Shown here: in pieces, positions 3,507-35,296 of the stretch | How positions within the stretch are numbered: the stretch's first letter is position 1 | How the letters are laid out: each line of letters begins with the position of its first letter | Assembly: GCA_026989535.1 (NCBI GenBank) | Contig: JALSJD010000001.1 | Coordinates: 1 to 35,987, forward strand | DNA from: Cyclobacteriaceae bacterium | GTDB lineage: Bacteria; Bacteroidota; Bacteroidia; Cytophagales; Cyclobacteriaceae | Length of the DNA: 35,987 nucleotides | Reading direction: 5' to 3' | Position numbers and translations under genes: made by a program | Notes under the pieces: generated by a model | The model's input: the letters and a program-made list of their open reading frames with translations, nothing else | The model's database searches: none | What the model was told of the DNA's origin: nothing

Positions 3507-6086
3507 ATGATGACAAAAATCAAGGAAACGAACTCCATTGAGTCGTACATTTTTAATAGCCAGCCTACAGGGGTTTTAGCGTTTAACTCTAAGTTTGAAG
3601 TTACGCTTTGTAACAAGGCTTTTACTAATCAAACCCTATTAAATCAACAAAAAATAGCGGGCGCCAATCTTTTTGATATTGCTAAATTTGACACTAAAAA
3701 GTTAAATTTTAAAAGCCAAATACTAGCCGGAAACCAACTTAATACATTAATAAAAATTAACGGAAAGAGTTTTGAAGTAGCCGTACTGCCTCTTTGGGAT
3801 GAGGAGAAGAATATAGGAGGTTCCATTACGTTGGGCGAAGAGATAACTGGCAGCCCTCAATTAAATTATTTATCAAAATCAGGCTTTAAATCGGTTATTG
3901 AAAATACCCCAATGACCATTATGATTTTTAGGGAAGACGGATCGGTGTTTTATACCAATCAACATTATAGAGATTTATGGGGCTTAACCGATAAAGAACT
4001 GTACCTTATTCATGAGTATTATAATATTTTTAACGATAAGCAGCTGAACAGTCAGGCCATGGATCCTTATCTTAAAAAGGCATTTGAAGGAAATAATGTT
4101 GAGCTACCTGTTATTAATTATGTGTTGGATTATGCTGGTTTAGGCCGTACTGATTTTGCCGCCAATCCAAACTGGCTTCTAGGCTATTTTTTTCCGCTTG
4201 AAAACCCTGATACCAAAGAACGCTTAGTTGCCCTTATTTTTACCGAAATAACACGACAAGTAGAGGCAGAACAAGCATTTAAGCAAAGCCAGCAAAGGTT
4301 AGAACTAGCGTTAGAAGGAGGCGAATTAGGTGTTTGGGATTGGGGCCTTGAAAACAACTCAATGGTTTATAATAAGCAGTGGGCTAAAATTTTAGGATAC
4401 GAACTTGATGAAATAGATATGTTTTCGTGGACGGGCTTGGTGCATCCCGATGACCTTGAATGGGTAGAGAAAAAGCTGAACGATCATATTGAAGGCAAGT
4501 CAGATTCCTATTTTGCGGAGTACCGTGTAAAAAGCAAAGCAGGGGAGTGGAAATGGATTTTAGATAGGGGTAAAGTTGTAGAATTTAACAAAGAAGGAAA
4601 GGCGAAACGAATTTCTGGCACTCATTTAGATATTACTGCTAAAAAACAATATGAAGAAGAGCTGAAAGCGAGTGAAGAGCGATATCGTAGCCTCGTAGAT
4701 GATTTACCGATTGGAGTGGCCATTGTGCAAGACGATATGGTAGTATATGCGAATAGAGAGTTGCATACTATTTTAGGGGCATCCAACGATAATGAACTTA
4801 TGGGGCTTTCGGCTTTAAAGCACTTTGCAGACCCTGAGGCTTACCACAATAAAGTACAAAGCATATTAAATAAAAGCGAAACAGAGACTACGGACGAAGT
4901 TAAAATAAGGGATTTAAGCGGTAAGCTTAGATGTGTTGAAATTACATCTATTCCATTTATGCACAATGATAAACCTGCAGTGCAATCAATTGTGAATGAT
5001 ATTCAGCAGCGTAAGGAGATTGAAGAGCAAACACTAAGAGCCGAAAAATTACTAAGCGGCCTGTTCGAAAATGCTCCAATGGGCATTGTAATGCTTGGTT
5101 TTGATGATGAAATTTTGAAAATAAATAAAGGCTTTGAGCAAATGTTTGGTTACACACCAAATGAGGTTGTTGGCAGGTATATAAACGATGTAATTGTCCC
5201 CGATAATTTAGCCGAAGAAGGAGCTAATTTGAGCAAAGGTTCGGCAATGGGAAAAGCCCTCTATAGTGAAACTGAAAGAGTAAGCAAATCAAAAGAACAG
5301 ATACCTGTAATGATTTACACACTTCCTGTAATTCATGACGATCAGCGATTGGGCGTGTATGGTATTTATATCGACTTAAGAAAAAGAATAAAGGTAGAAG
5401 AGGAATTAAAAGTACGCAACTTGGAGCTTGATAATTTTGTGTATAAGGTTTCGCATGATTTACGTTCACCATTGGCCTCCATCTTGGGGTTAATAAACTT
5501 GGTAAAGCTAGAAGGAGGCTTTCATGATAGTTTTGAATACCTTAAGCTCATGGAAAGGCAAGTACATAAGCTCGATCATTTTATCCACGATGTACTAAGC
5601 CATTCAAAAAATTTAAAAATGGCATTAGTAACCTCACCCATTAATTTTAAGGAGGTGATTGATAGGTGTATAAAAGATTTAAGTCACTTAAATGGGTTTG
5701 AAGAAGTAACTAAAAATATTAAAATTAAAATTAAAGGAGGTGAATTTTTAAGTGATCAGTGGAGGATAAACGAAATTTTTAGAAACTTAATTGCAAACTC
5801 AATTAAGTATAAAGACATAAGTAAGAATAACTGCGAGTTCAATATTAATGTAGATATAACTTCGCAAGCCTGCCAAATAATAATTTCAGATAATGGTATT
5901 GGTATTGTTGAGAAAAGCCTCCCGCATATTTTTGAGATGTTTTACCGCGCAACTGATACGTCAAAGGGATCCGGAATTGGCTTATACATTGTAAAAAATG
6001 CCATAGAAAAATTAGGAGGCACCATAGAAGTAGAAAGCGAGCATGGCAAGGGAACAAGTTTTATCATTGAACTACCGGTAATTTAA
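3507..6086 (+). CDS. Multi-PAS sensor histidine kinase
   Basis: A cytoplasmic hybridless kinase of 859 residues from the tandem ATG at 3507/3510; an in-frame TTG at 3486 is possible but less likely. Five PAS-like sensory domains cover roughly residues 10-630, including a PAS_3-type module whose C-cap reads GTHLDITAKK and a fifth with FENAPMGIVML. The dimerisation/phosphoacceptor domain has VSHDLRSPLASILG, with the phosphorylated His at about residue 650. The ATPase domain shows the N box (NLIANSIKYKD), G1 (DNGIGI), F box (FEMFYRA) and G2 (GSGIGLYIVKN). No transmembrane segment is evident, so it likely senses an internal signal such as redox state, light or a small ligand. No response regulator gene is next to it, so it is an orphan kinase and its partner lies elsewhere. 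Confidence 0.93.
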   Translation: MMTKIKETNSIESYIFNSQPTGVLAFNSKFEVTLCNKAFTNQTLLNQQKIAGANLFDIAKFDTKKLNFKSQILAGNQLNTLIKINGKSFEVAVLPLWDEEKNIGGSITLGEEITGSPQLNYLSKSGFKSVIENTPMTIMIFREDGSVFYTNQHYRDLWGLTDKELYLIHEYYNIFNDKQLNSQAMDPYLKKAFEGNNVELPVINYVLDYAGLGRTDFAANPNWLLGYFFPLENPDTKERLVALIFTEITRQVEAEQAFKQSQQRLELALEGGELGVWDWGLENNSMVYNKQWAKILGYELDEIDMFSWTGLVHPDDLEWVEKKLNDHIEGKSDSYFAEYRVKSKAGEWKWILDRGKVVEFNKEGKAKRISGTHLDITAKKQYEEELKASEERYRSLVDDLPIGVAIVQDDMVVYANRELHTILGASNDNELMGLSALKHFADPEAYHNKVQSILNKSETETTDEVKIRDLSGKLRCVEITSIPFMHNDKPAVQSIVNDIQQRKEIEEQTLRAEKLLSGLFENAPMGIVMLGFDDEILKINKGFEQMFGYTPNEVVGRYINDVIVPDNLAEEGANLSKGSAMGKALYSETERVSKSKEQIPVMIYTLPVIHDDQRLGVYGIYIDLRKRIKVEEELKVRNLELDNFVYKVSHDLRSPLASILGLINLVKLEGGFHDSFEYLKLMERQVHKLDHFIHDVLSHSKNLKMALVTSPINFKEVIDRCIKDLSHLNGFEEVTKNIKIKIKGGEFLSDQWRINEIFRNLIANSIKYKDISKNNCEFNINVDITSQACQIIISDNGIGIVEKSLPHIFEMFYRATDTSKGSGIGLYIVKNAIEKLGGTIEVESEHGKGTSFIIELPVI

Positions 6087-6090
6087 TTGC

Positions 6091-6107
6091 AGGGCGATAG
6101 CCCTTTT
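6091..6107 (+). terminator. Short hairpin terminator after the kinase
   Basis: AGGGC-GATA-GCCCT followed by TTT begins five bases after the kinase stop codon. The stem is only 5 bp and the T-run is short, so it is a weak intrinsic terminator. Confidence 0.4.
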
Positions 6108-6241
6108 GGCCTCTTGGGTTGGGAAATAATTTTGTTTGCGTAACAAACTGCTATAATACCCTAATAGCTTTGCCTTGGGGCCGTTTATTACCTGATCCTA
6201 ATCTAGCTCATTCCATCTTTTTTTCTGTTAAATCTTTACGC

Positions 6242-6249
6242 TAATTTTG
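6242..6249 (+). promoter_or_regulatory. -7 promoter box upstream of the VTT-domain gene
   Basis: TAATTTTG is an exact match to the Bacteroidota -7 consensus TAnnTTTG. No clear TTTG sits 19-21 bases upstream. Its last base is the first base of the longest GTG start (6249), so translation from that codon is unlikely if this promoter is used. Confidence 0.4.
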
Positions 6250-6266
6250 TGTTTACTCTATTGCTT

Positions 6267-6839
6267 GTGATAACAGAAAATAAATACAAATTTTTACTCA
6301 AAAACCTGCTTAAAGGCTTGGCTTGGCTGGCAGTTCTGTTATTGGTATTTATTTATTTTAAGGATAATATCAGCTTTCAATCAGATAGTAGTTTAATAAA
6401 ATATGGAAACAATCCTTGGGTGGTGTTTTCAATTTATACGCTGTCGGAAATTGTCGTAGGCATTATTCCGCCCGAATTGTTTATGATATGGTCATTAGAG
6501 TTGGCAGAGTACAGAAACTACATTAGTGACCTCGTATTATTGGCAAGTATATCTTATGCAGCAGGCACCTTATCTTATATTTTTGGTCGATACTTTAGTG
6601 GCACAATTTTGTATCGCTATTTACGAAAAAAATACTTAAAAAAGTATGAAGAAAAATTTAATAAGTATGGCGCTTTTTTACTTATTGTGGCTGCAGTAAC
6701 CCCTGTACCTTATTCGGCAATCTGTGTTTTGGTTGGGTCGGTAAAATACCCTGTTAAAAACTTTTTGTTAATTACTTTATTTAGGTTTGCCCGGTTTGGC
6801 GTGTACGGCTATTTGGTTTGGAAAGCTAGCTTGGTATAA
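6267..6839 (+). CDS. DedA/VTT-domain inner-membrane protein
   Basis: About 190 residues. An N-terminal transmembrane helix is followed by a VTT (SNARE-associated/DedA) region with re-entrant-type segments: GIIPPELFMIW, a Gly-rich AAGTLSYIFGRY helix, and the characteristic AVTPVPYSAICVLVGSV segment near the C-terminus. DedA-family proteins act in membrane homeostasis and lipid carrier (for example undecaprenyl phosphate) flipping, but this subgroup is uncharacterised. The longest frame opens at GTG 6249, which overlaps a -7 promoter box, so I favour GTG 6267 (TTG 6261 is also possible), giving MITENKYKFLLKN. It is monocistronic, with kinase upstream and a 3' intergenic region that leads to a shared terminator. 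Confidence 0.8.
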   Translation: MITENKYKFLLKNLLKGLAWLAVLLLVFIYFKDNISFQSDSSLIKYGNNPWVVFSIYTLSEIVVGIIPPELFMIWSLELAEYRNYISDLVLLASISYAAGTLSYIFGRYFSGTILYRYLRKKYLKKYEEKFNKYGAFLLIVAAVTPVPYSAICVLVGSVKYPVKNFLLITLFRFARFGVYGYLVWKASLV

Positions 6840-7057
6840 GCTTATAAGGCTTGCTGAAAACATATAAGCACTAATTAAACAATAGGTTTGCCCATTTAAG
6901 TCTCAAGCCATTGGTATTCTATAATTTGCAAAATGCAAGAACTCAAAACTGCTGCAAAAGAGTATAGAACTTTTGAGAAATGTAGAAGTGCTATCCCTTT
7001 TTTCATGGCGGATTAAACCTTTGCCCATTAAATTCATAGTAGAACCAACAAAATAAA
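6840..7057. other. Intergenic stretch without recognised features
   Basis: AT-rich sequence between the VTT-domain gene and the terminator hairpin that ends the secDF transcript. Both strands have only short frames, and I see no repeat, RNA gene or promoter. Confidence 0.5.
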
Positions 7058-7090
7058 AACCGAAGAGGCATGATGCCTCTTCGGTTTTAG
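7058..7090 (-). terminator. Intrinsic terminator of secDF (bidirectional)
   Basis: A 13-bp perfect stem, AACCGAAGAGGCA paired with TGCCTCTTCGGTT, with a 3-base loop. It is flanked by an A-rich tract on the left (7051-7059) and TTTT on the right. Read from the minus strand it follows the secDF stop by about 80 bases and has a T-rich tail, and it can also stop plus-strand transcripts from the VTT-domain gene. Confidence 0.85.
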
Positions 7091-7135
7091 CTTTTAGCGG
7101 GCTGAGTTTTTCAGCAGATTCTAACCTACATTATT

Positions 7136-7156
7136 TATGAATAATGCAGGCTAAAT
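7136..7156. repeat. Copy of a dispersed AATNCAGGCTAAAT motif
   Basis: On the minus strand this reads ATTTAGCCTGCATTATTCAT. It matches 10669-10688 at all but one position, and the right part recurs at 13738-13751. All copies are intergenic. The role is unknown: it could be a remnant end of a small mobile element. Confidence 0.4.
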
Positions 7157-7168
7157 ATGTATTCTTTT

Positions 7169-10144
7169 TTATTTTTTCTTTTCTAAATCTATTACAATTG
7201 GTGATGCAATAAAGATAGAAGAGTAAGTTCCTACCAATACACCTATAACAAGTGCAAAAGAGAAGCCTCTAAGCACTGCGCCACCAAAGAATAATAATAC
7301 TAATACAACCACTAAAGTAGTTAAAGAAGTAATTACTGTTCGGTTCATGGTACTATTAATGGCACTATTAAATATATCAGCTTTGTTTGATGATGTGTGC
7401 AAGTTGATGTTTTCTCTAATACGATCAAATACAATTACCGTATCATTAATAGAATAACCGATAATGGTTAAAATAGCCGCAATAAACACCTGATCTATTT
7501 CGAAACTAAAACCAAATAAGCTAGCAATGGCAAATGCCGAAAGCACCATCATTGTATCATGAAACAAGGCCACAATGGCTCCTAAGCCAAACTGCCATTT
7601 TCTAAATCGAACTAAAATGTACAAGAAAATAACAATAAGCGAAAGAACCATTGCTTTCATCGAATCCTTTTTAATATCATCGGCAATGGTAGCTCCCACT
7701 TTTTCTGAGCTTAAAATGGCAAAATGTGTATCATCAACTTTACTACCATCAGCAATGTAGATTTGACCCGTAGATTCGGCTAACCCAGCTACTAATAATT
7801 GCTGTACTTTTTCATCCATTTCAGATGATTCATCGCCTACCTCGTAACTTGTAGTTACCTTAATTACATTATTGGCTCCAAATGTTTTTACTTCGGTACC
7901 GGCTCCCTCAAAGCTGGAGGTTAAATCCGTTTTAATATCAGAAGCAACTACAGGCTGGTTAAAGCTAACCACATAAGACCTGCCTCCTTTAAAATCAACG
8001 CCAAGATTTAATCCATTTACAAAAAGCAACACTGTGCCAATTACTATTATTACGGATGACAAAATGTACGCTCTTCTCCTTTTCGACATAAAGTCGATAT
8101 TCATATTAGAAAGTAAGCCTGCTGAAAACCTAGTTTTGAAATTAAGGTTACTGGCATCTCCTTTTTTACGTAGCCATTGTTCCACAATTACTCGCGTAAT
8201 AAATACGGATGAAAAGAATGAACTAGCAATACCAATCATTAAGGTAATGGCAAATCCTTTCACAGGGCCTTGCCCTAATGAGTATAATATTGCTGCTGTT
8301 AAAAATGTAGTTACGTTTGAATCAATAATAGAGCTAAACGCTTTACTATAACCCGAAGAAACTGCCTCCCTTAAAGCCACTCCATTTCGTAATTCTTCTC
8401 GAATCCTTTCAAAAATAAGTACGTTGGCATCAATAGACATACCAATGGTAAGCACAATACCTGCAATGCCGGGCAGTGTAAGAGCCGCACTTAATTGTGC
8501 CAGAATGCCCATAATAAAGAAGATATTAAAGAGCAATGCAAAATTTGCTATAAATCCTCCTCGTGCATAATAAAAAATCATAAATATAACTACCAAAGCT
8601 AAGCCGGCTACAATAGATTTAACGCCTTGCAACTGAGCCTCTTTGCCTAAAGTTGGGCCAATAATAGCTTCTTGTACAATTCGAGTTGGGGCAGGTAATG
8701 TACCCGCTTTTAACACATTGGCTAAATCTTTGGCTTCTTCAATTGAAAAATTTCCTGAAATTTCTGAATTTCCATTAGGGATTTCTCCATTAACATTGGG
8801 GGCTGAATATACATAGCCATCTAGTACGATAGCGATACGTTCGCCTATATTAGCAGCTGTTAATTTTCGCCACTTTTTGGCTCCATTTGCATTCATTTGC
8901 ATAGATACTGAAGGGCGTGTTGCTTGGTCTAACGACTGACGAGCATCTGTAATTACGTCTCCTTCTAAAGGTGCTTTGCCTCCACGGCCTGTTTTTAAAA
9001 TATGAAACTCTATATGTGGCTCTGCTGTTAAATCATCATGATCGTGTGCTTTAACTTCCCAAGCAAATTTAAACCCACGTGGAATAAGTGCCTTTACATC
9101 GGCACGTTTAAAGATCCTGTTAATTTTAAACGTATCTTTTACATTATACACCAACCCTTCTTGGCTTGTAATTAGGCTAAAAATGGGCGAAACCTGAGAG
9201 TTAGCTAATGAGTCAAGCTTAGAATCTGTACTGGTACTATCAGCCCCAGCTACACTTGTGGTATCGTTTCCATCACCTAATAAACCTTGTAAACTTTCTT
9301 CTTCAGCAGGCTCGGCCTCTGTAGATTCTAAATTAGTAGTTGAAACGTTTGCCTTTTGTTCGGCCACTAAAAACGCATTAATCGATTGTAAAAAGTTACC
9401 CGATTCTTGTGGTGTAGCTACTTCAAAAAACTCCAGTTTAGCAGCCCCTTGTAATAGTTTACGAACTCTTGCGGGGTTATCAGCACCGGGTATTTCTACT
9501 TGAATCCTACCAGTACCTTGCAAACGCTGGATATTGGGTTGAGAAGTACCAAATCGGTCGATACGGGTACGAAGAATATTAAATGAGCGATCCATGGCAT
9601 CTTCAATTTCTTCGTTAATAATGCGCATAATCTCCTGATCGGTAGTTTCGAACGAAATTTTGCCACGGTTAGCAGCATTGGCAAAAATGGTACTTAGTTT
9701 ACCATCAGGTTTAATTTCTTTAAACGACTCATAAAACAAGCTGCTAAACGCTTCCTGACTTGTTTTTTGCTTTTCTACCGCCATATTAATGGCCGAAATA
9801 AAATCAGGGTCTTCGTTATTTCCACTGAGCCCCTTTATAAGCTCAACCGGAGAAACTTCCAGTACTACGTGCATACCTCCTTGTAAATCAAGTCCTAGGT
9901 TAAGCTCGGTGTCTTTAATTTCTTTAAATGTGTAATCTACGCCAAACAAATTATACACAGGCTCGTTCCAAATGGAGTCTAAGTACACCTGTTTTTTAGC
10001 GAGATCAACAATCCCTTCTTCGTTAGTAGCTGCGACTACGGCTTGTTTCTGTATATCCCTCGATATAAATGTGAAGGATAAATAATACAGACATAATGCT
10101 GTTACAATTAATGTAAGTACAACTATTGCACCTTTATTTCTCAT
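7169..10144 (-). CDS. secDF: Fused protein-export subunit SecDF
   Basis: A 991-residue inner-membrane fusion of SecD and SecF, the proton-driven accessory of the SecYEG translocon. The SecD half starts with one membrane helix, then GLDLQGGMHVV, the large periplasmic P1 region with a Gln/Asp/Ser/Thr-rich insertion (about residues 265-310), and a six-helix core with the signature GMSIDANVLIFERIREEL. The SecF half begins after a cytosolic linker (LSNMNIDFMSKRR), with GVDFKGGRSYVV and the signature SINDTVIVFDRIREN. Such a single-chain SecDF is usual in Bacteroidota. It ends in a lysine-rich tail and is followed by a strong terminator at 7058-7090. A 124-base gap with a palindromic repeat separates it from the upstream small gene. 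Identification is secure. Confidence 0.97.
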   Translation of the reverse strand: MRNKGAIVVLTLIVTALCLYYLSFTFISRDIQKQAVVAATNEEGIVDLAKKQVYLDSIWNEPVYNLFGVDYTFKEIKDTELNLGLDLQGGMHVVLEVSPVELIKGLSGNNEDPDFISAINMAVEKQKTSQEAFSSLFYESFKEIKPDGKLSTIFANAANRGKISFETTDQEIMRIINEEIEDAMDRSFNILRTRIDRFGTSQPNIQRLQGTGRIQVEIPGADNPARVRKLLQGAAKLEFFEVATPQESGNFLQSINAFLVAEQKANVSTTNLESTEAEPAEEESLQGLLGDGNDTTSVAGADSTSTDSKLDSLANSQVSPIFSLITSQEGLVYNVKDTFKINRIFKRADVKALIPRGFKFAWEVKAHDHDDLTAEPHIEFHILKTGRGGKAPLEGDVITDARQSLDQATRPSVSMQMNANGAKKWRKLTAANIGERIAIVLDGYVYSAPNVNGEIPNGNSEISGNFSIEEAKDLANVLKAGTLPAPTRIVQEAIIGPTLGKEAQLQGVKSIVAGLALVVIFMIFYYARGGFIANFALLFNIFFIMGILAQLSAALTLPGIAGIVLTIGMSIDANVLIFERIREELRNGVALREAVSSGYSKAFSSIIDSNVTTFLTAAILYSLGQGPVKGFAITLMIGIASSFFSSVFITRVIVEQWLRKKGDASNLNFKTRFSAGLLSNMNIDFMSKRRRAYILSSVIIVIGTVLLFVNGLNLGVDFKGGRSYVVSFNQPVVASDIKTDLTSSFEGAGTEVKTFGANNVIKVTTSYEVGDESSEMDEKVQQLLVAGLAESTGQIYIADGSKVDDTHFAILSSEKVGATIADDIKKDSMKAMVLSLIVIFLYILVRFRKWQFGLGAIVALFHDTMMVLSAFAIASLFGFSFEIDQVFIAAILTIIGYSINDTVIVFDRIRENINLHTSSNKADIFNSAINSTMNRTVITSLTTLVVVLVLLFFGGAVLRGFSFALVIGVLVGTYSSIFIASPIVIDLEKKK

Positions 10145-10267: not shown

Positions 10268-10621
10268 TTAGGGGGCATTGGGCGAAATAACCTGCCGAAA
10301 CAGGGTTTTGAAGAACGAAGATACATATTTTGTCACTACATGTGTATGCTTCTCTTTTTTATCATCCCCAAAAACAATTTCTTTAATTTGATGATAGACT
10401 TGATCTACCTGAATGGTTGAAACAGAAAGAAATACGTCTTGTGAAGCTACTGCAACTTCCGACTGATGATCTGAATTAGATGCATCGTTGATTACTTTGG
10501 CACTAACCACGAGGCTCGATTGCATATAGTCATGGCTGGTTTGATATACCAACACAGACATGCCCAACAGTACTAACAAAAGTAAAACCGATGGATGTTT
10601 ATATGTATTTTGCTTACTCAT
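10268..10621 (-). CDS. Small membrane-anchored protein of unknown function
   Basis: 117 residues that I do not recognise. It has a short basic N-terminus (MSKQNTYKHPS), one hydrophobic helix at about residues 11-27 (LLLLVLLGMSVLVYQTS) and a polar remainder, probably facing the periplasm. A helical C-terminal part has KKEKHTH followed by VVTKYVSSFFKTLFRQV. There are no cysteines and no lipobox. A good promoter lies directly upstream. It is followed on the same strand by secDF after a gap carrying a REP-like hairpin, so co-transcription is possible but not clear. Confidence 0.6.
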   Translation of the reverse strand: MSKQNTYKHPSVLLLLVLLGMSVLVYQTSHDYMQSSLVVSAKVINDASNSDHQSEVAVASQDVFLSVSTIQVDQVYHQIKEIVFGDDKKEKHTHVVTKYVSSFFKTLFRQVISPNAP

Positions 10622-10666: not shown

Positions 10667-10902
10667 CTATTTAGCCTGAATTATTCATGCGTTTAGATTG
10701 ATGCGGATACAAGGCGTCAAAAACATCGCTGTCCGCTAGCTAGCGAACAGCGATGTTTTTGCAACGAAGTAGACGTATTAAAATAAATGCACATTTTGAA
10801 AAAAAATAAATACTAAGAATGACATAAATAGCAGCTTTTCAAAGCTTGAGATTGGTTTGAGTTTATTTTCAAAATGTTTATAAATAGTTCAGGCTAAGTA
10901 GT
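10666..10902. repeat. Nested palindromic element, MITE-like
   Basis: The outer arms 10666-10685 and 10883-10902 are 20-base inverted repeats with two mismatches (ACTATTTAGCCTGAATTATT). Inside is a second imperfect palindrome around a perfect hairpin: AAAAACATCGCTGT at 10718-10731 pairs with ACAGCGATGTTTTT around 10748-10761, with CGCTAGCTAGCG between the arms. No flanking target duplication is visible. The element fills most of the 439-base gap between the divergent small membrane gene and fadR. Confidence 0.6.
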
Positions 10903-11023: not shown

Positions 11024-11031
11024 TAATTTTG
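11024..11031 (+). promoter_or_regulatory. -7 box of the fadR-glpD operon
   Basis: TAATTTTG matches TAnnTTTG exactly, 29 bases before the fadR ATG. A TTTG at 10996-10999 is upstream at a spacing of 24, slightly long for this promoter class. The predicted start site (about 11037) falls inside the FadR operator-like palindrome. Confidence 0.5.
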
Positions 11032-11046
11032 TGGTCTGACCTCTTA
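11030..11046 (+). promoter_or_regulatory. FadR operator-like site (autoregulation)
   Basis: TTGTGGTCTGACCTCTT contains the perfect 9-base palindrome GGTC-T-GACC (11033-11041). E. coli FadR sites have the core TGGTC-n-GAC with T-rich right flanks, and this sequence fits that pattern. All E. coli FadR base-contacting residues except one (Thr46 to Pro) are present in the regulator encoded 15 bases downstream. The site directly overlaps the predicted transcription start, as expected for repression. Confidence 0.6.
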
Positions 11047-11060
11047 CCTTTAAACTCCCA

Positions 11061-11759
11061 ATGGAAAAGTACAAAAAATATGTAAAACCAACCCAGTTTG
11101 CCGAGTTTGAAATAATTAAGGCAATTGTTACAAAAAAATGGGCAATTGGGCAAAAGCTTGCACCTGAACGTGAGTTAGCAGAAACGCTTGGCATTACCAG
11201 GCCTACCTTGCGCGAAGCATTACAGCGGTTATCAAGAGATGGCTGGATAACAATAAGACACGGGAAACCAACCATTGTAAATGATTATAAAAACAATGGA
11301 GGCCTCGGAATCCTAAATTCTTTGGTTCATTTCAACGATTTAGCATCAAGCAAACTAATAAAAGACTGGTTGGAGTTTAGGGTTATTGTGTTTCCAACTT
11401 TGGCTTATAAAGCAATTTTGTTAAAACCCCATGAAGTAACAAATATGCTAAATAAGGCACCTGCTTTAAATGCCACAAAGCAGGAGTTTGCTGTTTATGA
11501 TTGGGATTTGCAAATGGTAATGATAAATAATTGCGATAATTCAATTGCCAGAATGCTCTACAATGATTTATCAGAGCTCTACCACAAACATTGCCTCAAG
11601 TACTTTGATAATGAGCTTACCAAAACAACATCTTTCAAGTATTACAAAGACTTAAAATATGCTATCACTAACAGCAAAGAAAACATTACAGCAATAATAA
11701 AAAATGCGATGCAAGAAGGTTCAACTCTTTGGAGTAAGGTGCAGGAATTCAACTATTAA
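11061..11759 (+). CDS. fadR: FadR-type GntR-family transcriptional regulator
   Basis: 232 residues that align with E. coli FadR along the whole length. The winged helix-turn-helix (about residues 10-74) has PERELAETLGITRPTLREAL and DGWITIRHGKP. It keeps the positions of E. coli Arg35, Thr44, Arg45, Thr47, Arg49 and His65 as Arg37, Thr46, Arg47, Thr49, Arg51 and His67. The C-terminal all-helical domain matches the FadR acyl-CoA domain rather than a metal-binding FCD domain. Trp224 matches E. coli Trp223, but E. coli Gly216 and Ser219 are not kept, so the ligand may differ. It heads an operon, with glpD starting two bases after its stop. A FadR-like operator in its own promoter suggests acyl-CoA-relieved autorepression. 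Confidence 0.85.
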   Translation: MEKYKKYVKPTQFAEFEIIKAIVTKKWAIGQKLAPERELAETLGITRPTLREALQRLSRDGWITIRHGKPTIVNDYKNNGGLGILNSLVHFNDLASSKLIKDWLEFRVIVFPTLAYKAILLKPHEVTNMLNKAPALNATKQEFAVYDWDLQMVMINNCDNSIARMLYNDLSELYHKHCLKYFDNELTKTTSFKYYKDLKYAITNSKENITAIIKNAMQEGSTLWSKVQEFNY

Positions 11760-15472: not shown

Positions 15473-17032
15473 ATGGAACCTTTAATACTTTCGATTGATT
15501 GTGGCACACAAAGCATAAGAGCCATTTTGTTTACCTTAAAAGGAAATATTATTGATAAAGAGCAAATAGTGTACGAACCCTATTTTAGTTTAAAAGCAGG
15601 CTGGGCTGAGCAAAATGCTGAAGTATATTGGGAAGGTTTATGTGAAGCTACCAACATCCTGAAAAACCGGAATTTGGAAAATTTTAAAGATATTAAGGGT
15701 GTTGGCGTTACCACCTTGCGCAGCACCATGGTAAATGTAGATAAAGAGGGCAATACTCTTCGCCCATCATTGGTTTGGCTCGACCAACGAATGGCCAATA
15801 ATGTGTATAAACCAAACCTTGCCTTAAAATTAATATTTAAAGCACTTGGGCTTAATGCTACCTTGCAAAAAATGGAGCGCAAAGGCCACTGCAACTGGAT
15901 ACGGCAAAATGAGCCTGAAATCTGGAAAAAAACCCATAAATATTTACAAATTTCAGGTTATCTAAATTATAAACTTACTGGTGAATTTAAAGATTCGGTT
16001 GCATCTCAAATTGGGTATATACCTTTCGATTACAAAAAACAAACATGGGCAAACCCCAACGATTTACTTGAACTAAACAGCAAACTTTACCCCGTTGAGC
16101 AGGAGAAACTGCCTGAATTGGTAAGTCCAGGCGAACGTGTAGGAGAAATAAGTAAAAAGGCATCGGCTTTATCTGGCATTCCGCAAGATGTACCGGTAAT
16201 TGCCTGTGGATCGGATAAAGGCTGCGAAACGCTGGGAATGGGTGTTACAGATACCAAAACCGCCAGTTTAAGTTTTGGCACCACGGCTACGGTTCAAACT
16301 ACTTCTAATAAATATTTTGAACCTATCTCCTTTTTTCCGGCATATCCATCAGTTATACCCAACCACTGGAACCCAGAGATTGAGATTTATAGAGGATACT
16401 GGATGATACGATGGTTTAAAGATGAATTTGCCCATAAAGAAGTAGAAGAAGCGGCTAAAAAGAATATTCCTGCGGAAGAAGTAATGAATAAACTGCTCCA
16501 TAAATCACCTCCCGGAGCTATGGGTTTAATTATACAACCTTATTGGTCGCCTGGGTTGGGCGAAAAAAATGCCAAAGGTGCTATGATTGGCTTTGGCGAT
16601 GTACACAAAAAAGAACATATTTACAGAGCCGTAATCGAGGGGTTGGCTTATGGCCTGCTTGATGGAATGCACAAACTGGAAAAGCAAGGGAAGCTAACAT
16701 TTGAAAAACTGGCGGTTTCTGGAGGAGCATCTCAAAGCGATGAAATTTGCCAAATAACTGCCGATGTATTTAATATGCCTTTGGTGAGAGGCAAAACTCA
16801 CGAAACCTCAGGGTTAGGTGCTGCCATTTTAACTGCTTATGGTGTAAATGAGTTTTCATCGTTGCATAAAGCAGTAGAAAGTATGGTGTCGTATGCAGAT
16901 GTGTTTAAGCCCAAAGCTGAAAATACTAAAATTTACAGTGCCTTATACAAGGATGTTTATTTAAAAATGTACAAGAATTTAAAGCCTCTCTACAAAAAAA
17001 TTCAGGAAATAACCGGGTATCCAGAAAACTAG
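15473..17032 (+). CDS. FGGY-family carbohydrate/polyol kinase
   Basis: 519 residues from the ATG at 15473, preceded by an A/G-rich AAAAAGATAG; a TTG at 15446 inside the previous gene is unlikely. The two-domain FGGY fold is shown by IDCGTQSIRAILF (residues 8-20), WLDQRM, ISGYLNYKLTGEF, the catalytic Asp248 in CGSDKGCETLG, and SGGASQSDEICQITAD near the C-terminus. It resembles the XylB/xylulokinase group more than classical glycerol kinase. The operon context (glycerol-3-phosphate dehydrogenase, AGPS-like enzyme, FadR) suggests a glycerol-, dihydroxyacetone- or alkylglycerol-type substrate rather than a pentulose, which is inference. Its transcript ends at the hairpin at 17060-17088. Confidence 0.85.
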   Translation: MEPLILSIDCGTQSIRAILFTLKGNIIDKEQIVYEPYFSLKAGWAEQNAEVYWEGLCEATNILKNRNLENFKDIKGVGVTTLRSTMVNVDKEGNTLRPSLVWLDQRMANNVYKPNLALKLIFKALGLNATLQKMERKGHCNWIRQNEPEIWKKTHKYLQISGYLNYKLTGEFKDSVASQIGYIPFDYKKQTWANPNDLLELNSKLYPVEQEKLPELVSPGERVGEISKKASALSGIPQDVPVIACGSDKGCETLGMGVTDTKTASLSFGTTATVQTTSNKYFEPISFFPAYPSVIPNHWNPEIEIYRGYWMIRWFKDEFAHKEVEEAAKKNIPAEEVMNKLLHKSPPGAMGLIIQPYWSPGLGEKNAKGAMIGFGDVHKKEHIYRAVIEGLAYGLLDGMHKLEKQGKLTFEKLAVSGGASQSDEICQITADVFNMPLVRGKTHETSGLGAAILTAYGVNEFSSLHKAVESMVSYADVFKPKAENTKIYSALYKDVYLKMYKNLKPLYKKIQEITGYPEN

Positions 17033-17089: not shown

Positions 17090-17641
17090 TTATCGGCTAC
17101 TAATAGCCACTCTCATGCCAACCATACCAGTTTGCTTGATAGTGTATCCAGGGCTTTTCGGACTAAAGCCCAAATCAACAACTTCATGCCCAAACCCTTG
17201 CTGAATAATGGTGTATTTCATGCCATTACTTCCTAGCTCTTGTTGGACTTTGTTATTATTTCCAAACTGAATAACTTCTGTAGAAATTGAGTTACCGAGT
17301 TCAGTTACTTCGATAAAATTTCTATACCCATTTTGGCGCAAGCTAGCCAAGTTGTTCATACCTGATTGGGTTAATAACACACTAACCGCTTCTCCATATT
17401 GTACAACAAACGCCTTATTACCTCTGTTTAGTTGTGAATATTGAGCAATGTTTGCACTATTATTATTCCCAATTTGCTGCAAAAACACTTCGTCATCTTT
17501 AAATTCTTGCAGTGTTAAGTACCCACTTGTTTCCAGTTTTTTAGTGATACCTTGTTTTTCAACCTCTTGCTCTTGCGCAAAAATTGCTGAAGTTATAATT
17601 AATAAAATAAGAAAAAGTCCAATTTTAATGGCTGTATTCAT
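17090..17641 (-). CDS. CsgB-like minor curlin-repeat protein
   Basis: 183 residues with a signal peptide (IGLFLILLIITSAIFAQ) and a middle region of about eight degenerate 11-residue curlin half-repeats of the type Q-x-G-x-x-N-x-A (for example QQIGNNNSANIAQ, TQSGMNNLASLRQ, IQFGNNNKVQQ). The repeats are less regular than in the neighbouring large subunit, and the C-terminus (MVGMRVAISSR) is basic. These are features of CsgB-type nucleators, which stay cell-associated and template amyloid growth. It lies downstream of the CsgA-like gene, separated by a strong hairpin, and shares the 3' terminator with the kinase operon. The nucleator role is inferred from repeat degeneracy, size and position. 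Confidence 0.75.
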   Translation of the reverse strand: MNTAIKIGLFLILLIITSAIFAQEQEVEKQGITKKLETSGYLTLQEFKDDEVFLQQIGNNNSANIAQYSQLNRGNKAFVVQYGEAVSVLLTQSGMNNLASLRQNGYRNFIEVTELGNSISTEVIQFGNNNKVQQELGSNGMKYTIIQQGFGHEVVDLGFSPKSPGYTIKQTGMVGMRVAISSR

Positions 17642-17655
17642 TCTCTTAATAGTTA

Positions 17656-17691
17656 AAATAGTTGAAGGCGAAGAAAAGCCTTCAACTATTT
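17656..17691 (-). promoter_or_regulatory. Strong intercistronic hairpin between csgA-like and csgB-like genes
   Basis: A perfect 14-bp stem, AAATAGTTGAAGGC (17656-17669) with its complement at 17678-17691, and an 8-base loop. It begins 9 bases after the CsgA-like stop and ends 15 bases before the CsgB-like start. In the minus-strand transcript it is followed by UUUUAACU-like sequence, so it may terminate partially or protect the upstream mRNA, giving more major than minor subunit. Confidence 0.7.
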
Positions 17692-17700
17692 ATGTGGTAA

Positions 17701-19416
17701 CTAATTAGACTGAGTTATAACCGAAACGTTTCCAATACCAAATTGGAAACTGGCAGCATTATTGCCAATACCAAATTGAGTGGTAAGCGAGTAATTTCCA
17801 AACCCATCTTGGTATTGCATACTTGCGTTAAATGCTCCTAATTGTACACCTATTGCTAGGTTATCAGCACCAAACTGATATTGAGTTGCGCTATTGCCCA
17901 ATCCTGTTTGAAAAACTTCACCCATGTTAAAAATCCCGTCTTGTTCCTGAAATGCTTCATTGCCCAATCCTTCTTGAACACTATTTGCAACATTAAATGC
18001 TCCAAATTGTAATTGATACGCACTATTACCCATTCCAAGTTGGAAAGCATTAGCATAGTTTAATTCATCATATTGCTCTTGAACAACACTATTTTCATCT
18101 CCAAATTGTGTGGAAACCGCATAGTTATCTGCTCCGTTTTGGTATTGCCCAGCACTATTACCTTGCCCAAATTGAGCTGCAAAAGCATTATTGTACACAC
18201 CATATTGCTCTTGAACTACCATATTATAATCTGCAGCTCCTGAGCCAGTACCAACTTGCCAAACATAAGCTTGATTGTCTTCGCCTACTTGTACTTGGAA
18301 AGCAGCACTATAGCTATCATATTGCTCGGCTCCTGCTATATTATAGTTTCCATATTGCTCTTGGTCTGCATAATTATTGTTTCCTTCTTGATAAGCATCA
18401 GCGTAGTTCCAAGCTCCAACTTGGTATTGGTCTGCACCATTTTCAACTCCTGCTTGCCAAACAACTGCATCGTTTAATTCGCCCACTTGATCTTGATTGG
18501 AGTAGCTACCTTCTCCAATCTGGGTAGCAGTAGCAACATTAAATTCGCCAATTTGTGTTTGAGTTGCCCCATTACTAATACCCATTTGAACAATATCGGC
18601 ATAATTATCGTGGCCATCTTGTACTTGAGTTGCTTCATTATAGTCGGCAGCACTTGCGCCAAAACCTACCTGCCCAATATAGGCATTATTATCTGCCCCA
18701 ATTTGTGTTTGACTGGCACTGCTATAATCGCCATATTGCTCTACAAATGCATTATTATACTCACCGTCTTGATCTTGATTTGATGCATTATTATTGCCCT
18801 GCTGCCAAACTCTGGCATTGTTTACATAACCATATTGGTTAACAGTAGCTTCGTTAGCATCCCCATCTTGAATAACACCAGGGTCGGTAAAGTCAGTAGT
18901 TGTACCTACAAGGTTGCCTTCCCCTTCCTGAGTTATATCAACACTGTTTCCAAAACCTCCATCGGCAACTTCAGCATTAGCAATATTACCTTCGCCAAAC
19001 TGATTAACGCTAGATGTATTATATGCTCCATTAATAACTCTTATATGCGAAGCGTTTAAAGTTCCTTCCTGACTAACACCAGAGCTGTTACCAGTTCCTG
19101 AAAGGTCTATTACAGTAAGGTTTTCTTCTCCAAGCTGAAACTGGTTGGAACTGTTGCCCATGCCATTTTGGAACACATTGCTGCTATTATCGTTGCCAAT
19201 TTGTTCCTGGTTAGCAGCATTATCTACACCGAATTGGAAAACATATCCAAAATTATCACTTCCATCTTGGACTTGATTGGCATTGTTATCCATACCTGTT
19301 TGATCGGCAATGGCAATATTGCCGACACCTGTTTGAGTAACTGTGGCATTGTTATTTTGAGCATAGCCAAAAGAGGCTGCTAATAATAATGTACCAACTA
19401 ATAATGATTTTCTCAT
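17701..19416 (-). CDS. Very large CsgA-like curlin-repeat amyloid subunit
   Basis: 571 residues: a 20-residue signal peptide (LLLAASFGYAQ) followed almost entirely by about 47 curlin half-repeats of ~11 residues (x-Q-x-G-x-x-N-x-A-x-x), roughly 23 full repeats. E. coli CsgA has 151 residues and five. Such repeats stack as a beta-solenoid amyloid outside the cell after export through CsgG. The mature part has no Lys or Cys, only two Arg and two His, and many Asp/Glu and aromatic residues, so it is very acidic. Residues 204-341 and 342-479 look like a segmental duplication with 138-residue period; both contain a non-canonical AADYN insertion (256-260, 394-398). The 5' leader has a GGAGA/TCTCC hairpin (19441-19453). 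Confidence 0.9.
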   Translation of the reverse strand: MRKSLLVGTLLLAASFGYAQNNNATVTQTGVGNIAIADQTGMDNNANQVQDGSDNFGYVFQFGVDNAANQEQIGNDNSSNVFQNGMGNSSNQFQLGEENLTVIDLSGTGNSSGVSQEGTLNASHIRVINGAYNTSSVNQFGEGNIANAEVADGGFGNSVDITQEGEGNLVGTTTDFTDPGVIQDGDANEATVNQYGYVNNARVWQQGNNNASNQDQDGEYNNAFVEQYGDYSSASQTQIGADNNAYIGQVGFGASAADYNEATQVQDGHDNYADIVQMGISNGATQTQIGEFNVATATQIGEGSYSNQDQVGELNDAVVWQAGVENGADQYQVGAWNYADAYQEGNNNYADQEQYGNYNIAGAEQYDSYSAAFQVQVGEDNQAYVWQVGTGSGAADYNMVVQEQYGVYNNAFAAQFGQGNSAGQYQNGADNYAVSTQFGDENSVVQEQYDELNYANAFQLGMGNSAYQLQFGAFNVANSVQEGLGNEAFQEQDGIFNMGEVFQTGLGNSATQYQFGADNLAIGVQLGAFNASMQYQDGFGNYSLTTQFGIGNNAASFQFGIGNVSVITQSN

Positions 19417-31918: not shown

Positions 31919-32890
31919 ATGAAGAAAGATTCTGCTAAAAGCCATATTCAACGCAATCCGGGTACGGAGTTGGATTTGAGCTTAATCAATAAAATAAAAA
32001 TAAACAGAAGTGCCGTTGAAAGGCGTGCAGCCACCATGGGCACGAGGCGTGCGGTTAAAAAAGAGTGGCAAGCCGCTTGGTTACTAAGAGCAATTACCTG
32101 CATCGACTTAACCACCTTGGCAGGGGATGATACCGATGGCAATGTAGCTCGATTATGTGCCAAAGCACGCCAGCCAGTGAGGCAAGATATTTTACAAGCC
32201 TTAGATTTTGCTCAACCCATAACCACAGGAGCGGTTTGTGTGTATCACAATCTAATTCCTGCAGCTTTAAAAACGTTGGAGGGGAGTAATATTCCTGTGG
32301 CAGTGGTATCCACTGGTTTTCCGGCAGGGCAAATCACAAACAAGCAAAAAATAGAAGAAATAAAAGCTTCGGTAGCAGCTGGAGCTAAAGAAATAGATAT
32401 CGTAATTAGCCGAGCAATGGTGCTCACAGGTAATTGGGAGGCTCTCTATAACGAAGTAAAAGGATTTAGAGAAGCTTGTGGAGAGGCGCATCTTAAAACC
32501 ATTTTGGCAACGGGTGAATTAGCCACGTTAACCAATGTGGCTAAGGCAAGCCAAATTTGTATGATGGCTGGAGCTGATTTTATCAAAACTAGCACGGGCA
32601 AAGAGCCTGTTAACGCCACGTTGCCTGTAAGTTTAGTAATGGTACGAGCCATTAGGGATTATTACGAACGAACTGGTTTTAAAGTAGGGTTTAAACCTGC
32701 AGGTGGAATTAGCAAGGCAAAAGATGCCATCACTTGGCTCATTCTTATCAAAGAGGAGTTAGGCAATGAATGGTTGAATAACCACCTTTTTAGGTTTGGT
32801 GCTAGCAGCTTGCTAGGCGATATAGAACGACAATTAGAACATTTTACTACGGGTAGATATTCTGCTAGTTACAGACACCCCGTAGCTTAA
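31919..32890 (+). CDS. deoC: Deoxyribose-phosphate aldolase, animal-type
   Basis: 323 residues, longer than E. coli DeoC (259), and close to the animal DERA type from the N-terminal NPGTELDLSLINKI through VKKEWQAAWLLRAITCIDLT to the end. It cleaves 2-deoxyribose-5-phosphate to glyceraldehyde-3-phosphate and acetaldehyde. The TIM-barrel active site is intact: Lys223 in DFIKTSTGK forms the Schiff base, Lys259 in GFKPAGG and Asp160 in KEIDIV complete the proton relay. The acetaldehyde product is probably consumed by the aldehyde dehydrogenase encoded 21 bases downstream, so the pair forms a deoxynucleoside catabolic operon. Confidence 0.96.
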   Translation: MKKDSAKSHIQRNPGTELDLSLINKIKINRSAVERRAATMGTRRAVKKEWQAAWLLRAITCIDLTTLAGDDTDGNVARLCAKARQPVRQDILQALDFAQPITTGAVCVYHNLIPAALKTLEGSNIPVAVVSTGFPAGQITNKQKIEEIKASVAAGAKEIDIVISRAMVLTGNWEALYNEVKGFREACGEAHLKTILATGELATLTNVAKASQICMMAGADFIKTSTGKEPVNATLPVSLVMVRAIRDYYERTGFKVGFKPAGGISKAKDAITWLILIKEELGNEWLNNHLFRFGASSLLGDIERQLEHFTTGRYSASYRHPVA

Positions 32891-32911
32891 GTTTTCCTTA
32901 ATAAAAATATA

Positions 32912-35296
32912 ATGAGTGTAGCTTCAATTTTTGAATCAATGGAATACGGACCAGCTCCTGAATCGAAGGACGTGGCATTAGAATGGTTAAAAAATCATCA
33001 GCCTAGTTTTAAGCAATTTATTAATGGCAAATGGGTAGCTCCTAAGTCGAAAAAATACATGGATAGCCTTAACCCTTGCTCGCAAGAAAAATTGGCATCC
33101 GTTCCTGTGTCCAATAAAGAGGATGTGGATGATGCTGTAAAAGCGGCAGATAAAGCGGTAAAAGGCTGGGTTAAATTAGGAGGGCACGGAAGGGCTAGGT
33201 ATTTATATGCGATTGCTCGTCAAGTTCAAAAGCACGCAAGGTTATTTGCTGTATTGGAGTCGATGGATAATGGCAAACCCATTCGTGAAACACGAGATAT
33301 CGATATCCCATTAGTGGCTCGCCATTTTTACCACCACGCAGGGTGGGCGCAGTTGCAAGCAGAGAAACTGCCCGATTATAAAGAAATTGGCGTGGTTGGG
33401 CAAATTGTTCCTTGGAATTTTCCGATGTTAATGCTTAGTTGGAAAATTGCCCCAGCCTTAGCCATGGGTAATACGGTTATTTTAAAACCTGCCGAATTTA
33501 CTTCATTAACAGCTCTCCTTTTTGCAGAAATTTGTGAAAAAGTGGGGCTTCCAGCAGGTGTGGTTAATATTATTACAGGCGAAGGCGAAACTGGTGCTGC
33601 GATGGTGGATCACCCAGGCATCAGTAAAATTGCTTTTACAGGCTCTACCGAAGTAGGTAGAATTATAAGAAGAGCAGCTTCTAGCACCGAAAAGAAACTA
33701 TCACTCGAATTAGGAGGTAAATCTCCGTTTATTGTATTTGAAGATGCCGACCTTGATAGCGTGGTAGAAGGGGTGGTAGATGCCATTTGGTTTAACCAAG
33801 GGCAAGTATGTTGTGCAGGTTCTCGTTTATTGGTGCAAGAAAGTATTGCGGATAAATTATATGATAAAATTCGTAAACGAATGGAATCGTTACGGATAGG
33901 GAATGCCCTAGACAAAGGCATCGATATTGGTGCGATTGTAGCTCCTGTTCAACTTAAAACGATTGAAGAACTGGTTCAAAAAGGCGTTGACGAAGGAGCA
34001 GAATTATGGCAACCCAGCTGGGAATGCCCAACCGAAGGGTGTTTTTATCCGCCCACCTTATTTACCAATGTAGCTCCTGCATCTACCATTGCACAAGAAG
34101 AAATATTTGGGCCCGTACTCGTTGCTATGAGTTTTCGAACTCCTGCCGAAGCCGTAAAACTAGCCAATAATACACGCTACGGCTTGGCCGCTAGTTTATG
34201 GACAGAAAACATAAATTTGGCACTAGATATTGCTCCCAAAGTTAAAGCAGGTACCATTTGGATTAACTGCACCAATATGTTTGATGCAGCTTCTGGTTTT
34301 GGGGGTTATCGCGAATCTGGCTTTGGACGAGAAGGAGGACTTGAAGGGCTATATGAATATGTAAAACTAAAAGTAGAAGATGAGTTTAAATCAGCTCCAG
34401 AGCCCAAAAAGCTAACCGAAAAATTACCTAGTGCCGAAAATGGCATTCCTGCATTGGATAAAACAGCCAAATTTTACATTGGAGGCAAGCAAAAACGACC
34501 TGATGGTGGGTATAATAATAATGTGCTTGACACCAAAGGAAATGTAATTGGGGAAGTGGGCGAAGGAAATAGAAAAGACATTCGTAATGCAGTGGAGGCA
34601 GCGCATGCTGCTAGTAAATGGGCTAGAACAACAGAACATACACGTGCCCAAATAATTTATTATATGGCAGAAAATTTAGAAGCACGAGCCACTGAATTTG
34701 CAGACCGTTTGTCAACGGCTCTCAATCAATCTACTAAAAAATCGAGGCAAGAAGTGGAGGCATCCATTGATTGCCTATTTACCTATGCAGCTTATGCCGA
34801 TAAATATGATAGTAGTGTACACGCCACACCCCACCGAAATGTAACATTGGCAATGAAAGAACCGATTGGTGTTATGGGCGTTGTTTGCCCGAATGAAGCT
34901 CCGTTACTAGGATTTATTTCTACTGTTATCCCATTAATTTCTATGGGCAATACGGTGGTGGCAATACCCTCAGAAACAGCTCCACTTTCTGCTACCGATT
35001 TATACCAAGTACTCGAAACTTCGGATGTGCCAGGCGGTGTAATTAATATTATTACTGGAGATAAGGAAGAATTAACCAAGGTACTAGCCACCCACGATGA
35101 TGTAGATGGACTTTGGTATTTTGGCTCTAAAGAAGGAAGCTCGCTGGTGCAAAATGCAGCCGCTGAAAATATGAAACGCACGTGGGTAAACTTTGGTAAA
35201 AACCGAGATTGGTTTAACCCCAAACACGTACTTGCCCACGACTTTTTAAGACGAGCCACCGAAATTAAAAATATTTGGGTGCCTTATGGGGAGTAA
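32912..35296 (+). CDS. ALDH16-type double-domain aldehyde dehydrogenase
   Basis: 794 residues with two aldehyde dehydrogenase modules. The first (about 30-490) is complete: VPWNFPMLM, FTGSTEVG, Glu266 in LELGGKSP and catalytic Cys300 in GQVCCAGSR. The second (about 505-794) keeps the fold (EPIGVMGVVCPNEAPLL, NTVVAIPS) but has no catalytic Cys or Glu and ends in NIWVPYGE. This layout, the N-terminal ESMEYGPAPES and the C-terminal ending match ALDH16, known from animals and some bacteria; the bacterial enzymes, unlike mammalian ALDH16A1, keep the Cys. It likely oxidises acetaldehyde or another aldehyde from the deoC reaction. It starts 21 bases after deoC, and the following small gene overlaps its end. 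Confidence 0.93.
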   Translation: MSVASIFESMEYGPAPESKDVALEWLKNHQPSFKQFINGKWVAPKSKKYMDSLNPCSQEKLASVPVSNKEDVDDAVKAADKAVKGWVKLGGHGRARYLYAIARQVQKHARLFAVLESMDNGKPIRETRDIDIPLVARHFYHHAGWAQLQAEKLPDYKEIGVVGQIVPWNFPMLMLSWKIAPALAMGNTVILKPAEFTSLTALLFAEICEKVGLPAGVVNIITGEGETGAAMVDHPGISKIAFTGSTEVGRIIRRAASSTEKKLSLELGGKSPFIVFEDADLDSVVEGVVDAIWFNQGQVCCAGSRLLVQESIADKLYDKIRKRMESLRIGNALDKGIDIGAIVAPVQLKTIEELVQKGVDEGAELWQPSWECPTEGCFYPPTLFTNVAPASTIAQEEIFGPVLVAMSFRTPAEAVKLANNTRYGLAASLWTENINLALDIAPKVKAGTIWINCTNMFDAASGFGGYRESGFGREGGLEGLYEYVKLKVEDEFKSAPEPKKLTEKLPSAENGIPALDKTAKFYIGGKQKRPDGGYNNNVLDTKGNVIGEVGEGNRKDIRNAVEAAHAASKWARTTEHTRAQIIYYMAENLEARATEFADRLSTALNQSTKKSRQEVEASIDCLFTYAAYADKYDSSVHATPHRNVTLAMKEPIGVMGVVCPNEAPLLGFISTVIPLISMGNTVVAIPSETAPLSATDLYQVLETSDVPGGVINIITGDKEELTKVLATHDDVDGLWYFGSKEGSSLVQNAAAENMKRTWVNFGKNRDWFNPKHVLAHDFLRRATEIKNIWVPYGE

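Follow-up and report, generated by a model that had tools for sequence, protein, structure and literature searches.

The stretch of DNA analyzed herein (the window) comprises 35,987 nucleotides from the start of a contig of a Cyclobacteriaceae bacterium of the phylum Bacteroidota. It carries a gene for a FadR-like regulator of the GntR family, followed on the same strand by genes for three enzymes that are presumably co-transcribed with it: a GlpD-like dehydrogenase, a flavoprotein related to alkyldihydroxyacetonephosphate synthase (AGPS), and an FGGY-family kinase (Table 1). The GlpD-like and AGPS-like genes are separated by a gap of 344 bp, which leaves room for another promoter. The original prediction placed a FadR operator-like palindrome, GGTCTGACC, between a −7-like promoter box and the ATG of the regulator gene at position 11061, and the sequence bears this out, with the 10-mer TGGTCTGACC occupying positions 11032 to 11041. 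Further upstream, a strong inverted repeat with a T-run at its end (AACATCGCTGTCCGCTAGCTAGCGAACAGCGATGTTTTT, positions 10722 to 10760) resembles a terminator and lies between the start of a minus-strand open reading frame (ORF) at 10621 and fadR. Beyond the kinase gene, two minus-strand ORFs (17090 to 19416) are built from short repeats in which N and Q residues recur, and which by eye we take to be curlin-like. Near the end of the window (31919 to 35296) lie a DeoC-family ORF (PF01791) and, after it, a 794-aa ORF whose single chain contains two aldehyde dehydrogenase stretches (PF00171).

Table 1. Features of the fadR locus in the window
Feature	Position	Strand	Evidence
−7 promoter box (putative), TAATTTTG	11024–11031	+	fits Bacteroidota −7 pattern TAnnTTTG
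Palindromic half-site pair, GGTCTGACC	11033–11041	+	canonical FadR-type GGT-N3-ACC
Composite operator (candidate), GGT-CTG-ACC-TCTT-ACC	11033–11048	+	half-site pair 11033–11041 plus third half-site ACC 11046–11048
FadR-like GntR-family regulator, 232 aa	11061–11759	+	PF07840 E 1.9e-23; PF00392 E 1.2e-16; PDB FadR matches; tree
GlpD-like FAD-dependent glycerol-3-phosphate dehydrogenase relative, 551 aa	11762–13417	+	PF01266, PF16901; NF008899 299.2 bits, below cut-off of 360
AGPS-like flavoprotein (alkyldihydroxyacetonephosphate synthase relative), 566 aa	13762–15462	+	PDB 2uuu E 1.8e-73, 4bby E 4.4e-59; SHHHGVG at residues 516–522
FGGY-family kinase	15473–17032	+	PF00370, PF02782; XylB 248.5 bits > GlpK 159.7 bits, both below cut-off

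The regulator combines a GntR-type winged helix-turn-helix domain (PF00392, 60.5 bits against a cut-off of 27) with a FadR_C domain (PF07840, 83.6 bits against 23.6). It scores below the cut-offs of both equivalog models for gammaproteobacterial FadR (TIGR02812, 169.7 versus 249.2 bits; NF003444, 175.1 versus 189 bits). A PDB search with the 232-aa protein returned FadR first, and E. coli FadR structures are the top Foldseek matches of its predicted model (mean pLDDT 83.4, pTM 0.65). The match to 1hw1 has an E value of 1.4e-11 and a TM score of 0.59. Its whole-chain rmsd of 11.6 means that the two domains of the regulator probably sit differently from those in 1hw1.

Orthologues were selected by the protein alone, without reference to any site. 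The resulting set of 13 genomes, including that of the window, comprises three from Bacteroidota and 10 from Desulfobacterota. Five loci (L007 to L011) were joined by eight from 395 genomes of the phylum of L011, one of the eight being L011's own genome. Two of the five (L007 and L008) are metagenome-assembled genomes titled Bacteroidales and Ichthyobacteriaceae, and the other three belong to Desulfobacterota, with L011 representing Desulfatibacillum alkenivorans. Among the 32 genomes matched in the larger draw, the eight with E values of 2.3e-61 or better were taken as orthologues, and the 24 at 8.9e-37 or worse as other GntR regulators. A Bacillus candidate (L012) was rejected, since its 34% identity extends over residues 17 to 75 only and represents an ordinary helix-turn-helix match.

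Residues were compared with the E. coli FadR sequence, using contact residues listed in a section of PMC4259882. The window protein retains six of the seven DNA-contact residues (R35, T44, R45, T46, T47, R49, and H65), with proline at position 46, precisely as originally predicted. Across the set, R35, R45, T47, R49, W60, and G66 are retained in all 13 regulators, and T44 and H65 in 12, whereas T46 is replaced by P in 12 and by A in one. Of the ligand-contacting positions, W223 is kept in every protein and S219 in 10, while G216 is M in all 13. In the window, positions 216, 219, and 223 are M, G, and W. Because Gly216 is Met throughout and Ser219 is Gly in the window, acyl-CoA is a plausible but uncertain ligand.

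The palindrome is conserved upstream of the orthologous fadR genes, as the original prediction would have it, but as two thirds of a longer and asymmetric element in which a third ACC follows seven bases on. The sequence GGTNNGACCTCTTACC is found exactly in 11 of the 13 promoters, with one mismatch in another (TTGCC in L102), and is absent from the last; the extended site GACCTCTTACC is likewise exact in 11. The exception, L103 (genome G506), is the weakest scorer of the eight added orthologues and carries only a canonical AATCAGGTAATACCTGATG. All three Bacteroidota sites read GGTC[TA]GACC, and the nine Desulfobacterota sites read GGTATGACC (eight) or GGTAAGACC (one), with five being exactly CTGGTATGACCTCTTACCAG. 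The flanks of the element show no conservation, and its distance to the ATG differs among the loci. It is this conservation across orthologous promoters, and not the 10-mer alone, that gives the palindrome its significance: with up to one mismatch the 10-mer has four matches in the window against 2.25 expected, a count reached in 21 of 100 shuffles. The element is most likely an extended variant of the known FadR site type, serving as the operator of a FadR-like local repressor. We also considered whether the outer arms (GGT-N10-ACC) might form a second dimer site. This was set aside, as the arms pair at three to six of six positions in 12 loci, with the fewest (three) in the window.

The position of the element relative to the promoter differs between the two phyla. 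Bacteroidota promoters carry a −7 box of the pattern TAnnTTTG, which TAATTTTG presumably represents in the window. Similar boxes occur at the same place in L007 (TATCTTTG) and L008 (TAATTTAG, one base off), and in all three Bacteroidota loci the element begins one base 3′ of the box. At seven of the nine Desulfobacterota sites, a TTGACA-like hexamer (TTGACA, TTGACT, or TTGATA) lies 16 to 18 bp before a TATGAC or TAAGAC within the element, such that most of these sites overlap what we take to be a −10-like box. No TTGACA-like hexamer is present at the right distance in L100 and L102. The location at the core promoter suggests autorepression. Since the sequence of the element stays the same although its location within the promoter region varies, the element is more readily understood as an operator than as a component of the promoter.

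A genome scan for the palindrome, suggested along with the original prediction, revealed no wider regulon: TGGTCNGACC has three exact matches in the whole genome compared to eight for a reversed-pattern control, and the other two exact copies of TGGTCAGACC fall within ORFs for a subtilase and an asparagine synthase. The exact 16-mer of the extended element occurs once per genome, at fadR, in all six carrier genomes, and no set of fatty acid degradation and biosynthesis genes comparable to the gammaproteobacterial FadR regulon emerges from its single genomic copy. Allowing up to two mismatches in genome G000 gave nine matches, the same as the control and thus none beyond chance, in scans that would miss degenerate sites. 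Among 345 Desulfobacterota genomes, 10 contain the exact 16-mer, including five of the seven fadR carriers of that draw, where it always sits at the fadR promoter, and five of the 338 non-carriers; the reversed control has 17 matches in the same genomes, as counted by eye. Of the five non-carrier sites, one is intergenic and the other four fall within a long ORF, and no relative of FadR, GlpD, AGPS, or FGGY is encoded in the 3 kb examined at each. Judged by the single exact element in each of the six carriers, the FadR-like system is a local switch rather than the head of a fatty acid regulon.

We consider it probable that the element serves a FadR-like repressor as its autoregulatory operator, from which a ligand releases it. 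A FadR-like dimer would most likely occupy the canonical half-site pair immediately 3′ of the −7 box and thereby block initiation. The third half-site, which is nearly invariant, would most likely be held by a further DNA-binding domain, contributed by a second dimer or a tetramer, which would tighten repression. A lipid, most likely a long-chain acyl-CoA, would then free the operator and turn on the regulator gene together with those for the GlpD-like and AGPS-like enzymes and the FGGY kinase. The regulator, the operator, and at least part of the gene set would have been exchanged between Desulfobacterota and Bacteroidota.

A simpler proposal is that only an ordinary FadR palindrome of 9 to 11 bp acts, and that CTCTTACC is kept through promoter function, the start of transcription, or shared ancestry. 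The Desulfobacterota operator does overlap a plausible −10 sequence (TATGAC), which would place some bases under a double constraint, L103 has the canonical palindrome alone, and a section of PMC4494728 indicates that FadR-subfamily sites typically need only GT-N3-AC. However, the same bases follow the −7 box in Bacteroidota and lie over or after the −10 box in Desulfobacterota, and no single promoter role fits both arrangements. The variable distance to the ATG and the unconserved flanks also count against this explanation. Moreover, the 10 Desulfobacterota proteins are only ~34 to 40% identical to the window protein, and descent alone would hardly keep the bases at such divergence. We therefore regard the palindrome acting by itself as improbable, and favor the operator with three half-sites.

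The regulator is distributed patchily. It is found in only one of 98 relatives, which is the genome of the window itself, in none of four others of the same genus, and in one of 295 genomes of the class (again its own). The AGPS-like gene occurs in two of 59 relatives, namely the same genome and one with 33% identity. When a profile built from six orthologues was run against Bacteroidota samples of 395 and 295 genomes, the sole match in each was the genome already in the set (G487, with the next best at E 1.8e-27, or G000 for E up to 1e-40). Weak PF07840 matches in 20 other Bacteroidota of the 395 (best E 6.9e-10) were on this basis rejected as orthologues.

In a tree containing E. coli FadR as its one gammaproteobacterial sequence, the 13 regulators and this protein (14 rows) separate from 11 other GntR proteins with support of 100/99, at a split that carries a long-branch warning. 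Without E. coli FadR, the 13 separate from six GntR proteins at 100/100. The three Bacteroidota regulators form one clade (100/99) located next to L102 and L009. Support for this joining of Bacteroidota with L009 and L102 is 97/92 in the full tree but 84/77 in trees with fewer rows, where the nearest joins have 84/77 and 80/74. Desulfobacterota as a single clade is disfavored, with an AU p of 0.0075 when E. coli and Bacteroidota are both outside, 0.0263 without E. coli, 0.033 when L102 is left out as well, and 0.0362 with E. coli constrained to group with them. A clade of all 13 that excludes E. coli FadR has an AU p of 0.102, and E. coli FadR could lie inside or beside the group. Together, the patchy distribution and the trees favor, with moderate confidence, transfer from Desulfobacterota to Bacteroidota. 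Long branches, the drop in support with rows omitted, and the single gammaproteobacterial sequence keep this short of proof. The original prediction held that a conserved pair of protein and site would point to transfer or to an older origin. The sporadic occurrence indeed points to transfer, but the apparent source is Desulfobacterota, and the link to Gammaproteobacteria seems to be a deeper relation.

The presence of a FadR_C-family regulator, and of an operator-like site that its orthologues share in their promoters, agrees with the FadR reading first put forward for this locus, but no classical fad genes follow the regulator gene. A GlpD-like match is present in 12 of the 13 clusters, with L007 cut by the contig end and L100 having a match of only 53 residues. 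The FGGY kinase is present in 11, the contigs of L007 and L099 ending before it. AGPS-like genes are found in 10 clusters, five of the window type and five of another type that is ~30% identical; the contig of L007 ends, only 4 kb of L101 was examined, and L100 has none in the stretch. The AGPS-like gene in L010 and the kinase gene in L101 are divergent from fadR. Homology of the window flavoprotein to AGPS spans the FAD and C-terminal domains (2uuu aligned over residues 96 to 557) and includes the HHH of SHHHGVG, which we take to be the functional motif of AGPS. The other type carries HQH in its place, and the best solved relatives of both types are AGPS.

The GlpD-like protein of the window is ~50% identical to those under other GntR regulators (L072 to L078) and only 25 to 30% identical to those of the Desulfobacterota fadR clusters, so the operon looks mosaic. 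In L106 (genome G806, positions 3728 to 8007) and L082, a different GntR regulator with 26% identity and a TTGGTCGGACCACCG site precedes an AGPS-like gene (59% identical to that of the window) and an FGGY gene. This enzyme pair has thus been placed under different regulators.

What the gene set does can be read in several ways. One tentative possibility is that the operon encodes an oxygen-independent route of ether-lipid breakdown. The FGGY kinase would phosphorylate 1-O-alkylglycerol, the GlpD-like enzyme would oxidize the product at C2 to alkyl-DHAP, and the AGPS-like enzyme would run its exchange in reverse and free a fatty alcohol. This alcohol would be converted into acyl-CoA, which would in turn release the repressor from its three half-sites. 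With its kinase step, C2 oxidation, and reverse AGPS reaction, this reading gives each of the three enzymes a role. AGPS is known for the synthesis of alkyl-DHAP, and the operon might instead serve ether-lipid synthesis in this forward direction, with FadR coupling it to acyl-CoA supply. Consistent with this, D. alkenivorans is rich in alkyl ether lipids, but the same source (PMC11150832) attributes the ether bonds of this species to the glycerol ester reductase Ger. Pfam searches of six neighboring ORFs of carrier clusters (two with TPR, one each with DUF362, Mur ligase, and pyridine nucleotide-disulphide oxidoreductase, and one without a match) revealed no acyltransferase or acyl-CoA reductase. 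GlpD-type enzymes are oxidizing and quinone-linked, and their presence beside an FGGY kinase points the other way. A biosynthetic role seems slightly less probable than breakdown.

It is also possible, at similarly modest odds to breakdown, that this is a second, ordinary operon for glycerol-3-phosphate utilization, in which the AGPS-like flavoprotein acts simply as a general GlcD/D-lactate-type dehydrogenase. A GlpD-like gene and an FGGY gene are a typical glycerol pair, and the flavoprotein also matches GlcD models. However, AGPS structures are by far its best solved relatives (1.8e-73 versus 9.6e-21), and the window kinase is far from GlpK. Elsewhere in the genome, on contig C51, a true GlpK (713.3 bits, cut-off 590.35) adjoins a second GlpD-like gene, and the gene set of the window is therefore extra.

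PMC4259882 describes fatty-acid-responsive FadR as exclusive to Gammaproteobacteria, and PMC5343134 reports its absence from other proteobacterial classes among 196 genomes. PMC4494728 lists 10 deltaproteobacterial and no Bacteroidetes regulators in what appears to be its FadR column. The finding that Desulfobacterota and Bacteroidota have a regulator of the FadR clade, together with a conserved operator-like site, widens the range of FadR. FadR2 of Desulfococcus multivorans was considered as the same protein and rejected, since a passage of PMC5109826 calls it TetR-type. Among the literature matches listed, none concerned this operator or operon, and none retrieved with the string ACCTCTTACC concerned FadR, as judged by titles and the beginnings of abstracts. 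The locus offers an extended operator type for structural study and marks out a conserved set of kinase, GlpD-like, and AGPS-like genes. A 2021 review (PMC7911779) gives the O2-dependent AGMO as the sole alkylglycerol-degrading enzyme then known. If ether lipids are indeed broken down without O2 by these enzymes, this would bear on the recycling of ether-lipid biomarkers in sediments.

The closest solved structures are the FadR proteins of E. coli and Vibrio (PF07840, GntR superfamily). They share with the window regulator the two-domain architecture, residues R35, T44, R45, T47, R49, H65, W60, and W223, and the core operator GGT-N3-ACC. The window regulator differs from them in its ~30% identity (structural alignment) and in the T46 to P and G216 to M replacements. 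The system also differs in its extended operator, in its phyla and target genes, and in that no fad/fab regulon was found in this genome.

A related target gene is found with Desulfobacterota GntR regulators that are encoded upstream of GlpD-like genes (L072 to L078, L080, L084, L086, and L091 to L093) and whose aligned parts share ~25 to 36% identity with the window protein. At 10 of these 13 loci, GGT-N3-ACC is followed after four or five bases by ACC, giving TTGGTCGGACCACCGGACCAA-like sites, although L078 and L080 do not differ in their sites and are perhaps closely related. By eye, L073 and L074 have an analogous site with one change, and L092 has none. The third half-site extension thus recurs in regulators of related genes, but is one base further away than in the window, and the recognition helix reads NRST in five aligned loci compared to TRPT in the window protein. 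Further Desulfobacterota GntR genes (L079, L081, L083, L085, L087, L089, and L090) share CTGGTAATACCACCAGCC-like sites (TTGGTATTACCATCAGCC in L087), in which the canonical pair is overlapped by a further half-site; no GlpD, AGPS, or FGGY match lies within the stretch examined around them.

NanR likewise uses more than the canonical half-site pair. According to a section of PMC4494728, it binds direct repeats of TGGTATAW, whereas the window site combines the canonical inverted pair with a third half-site. Finally, the predicted AGPS-like enzyme belongs to the same sequence family as eukaryotic alkyl-DHAP synthase (2uuu and 4bby), with which the window type shares the HHH motif. Unlike the eukaryotic enzyme, it is encoded in an operon with a kinase and a GlpD-like protein, and in five clusters the HQH type takes its place.
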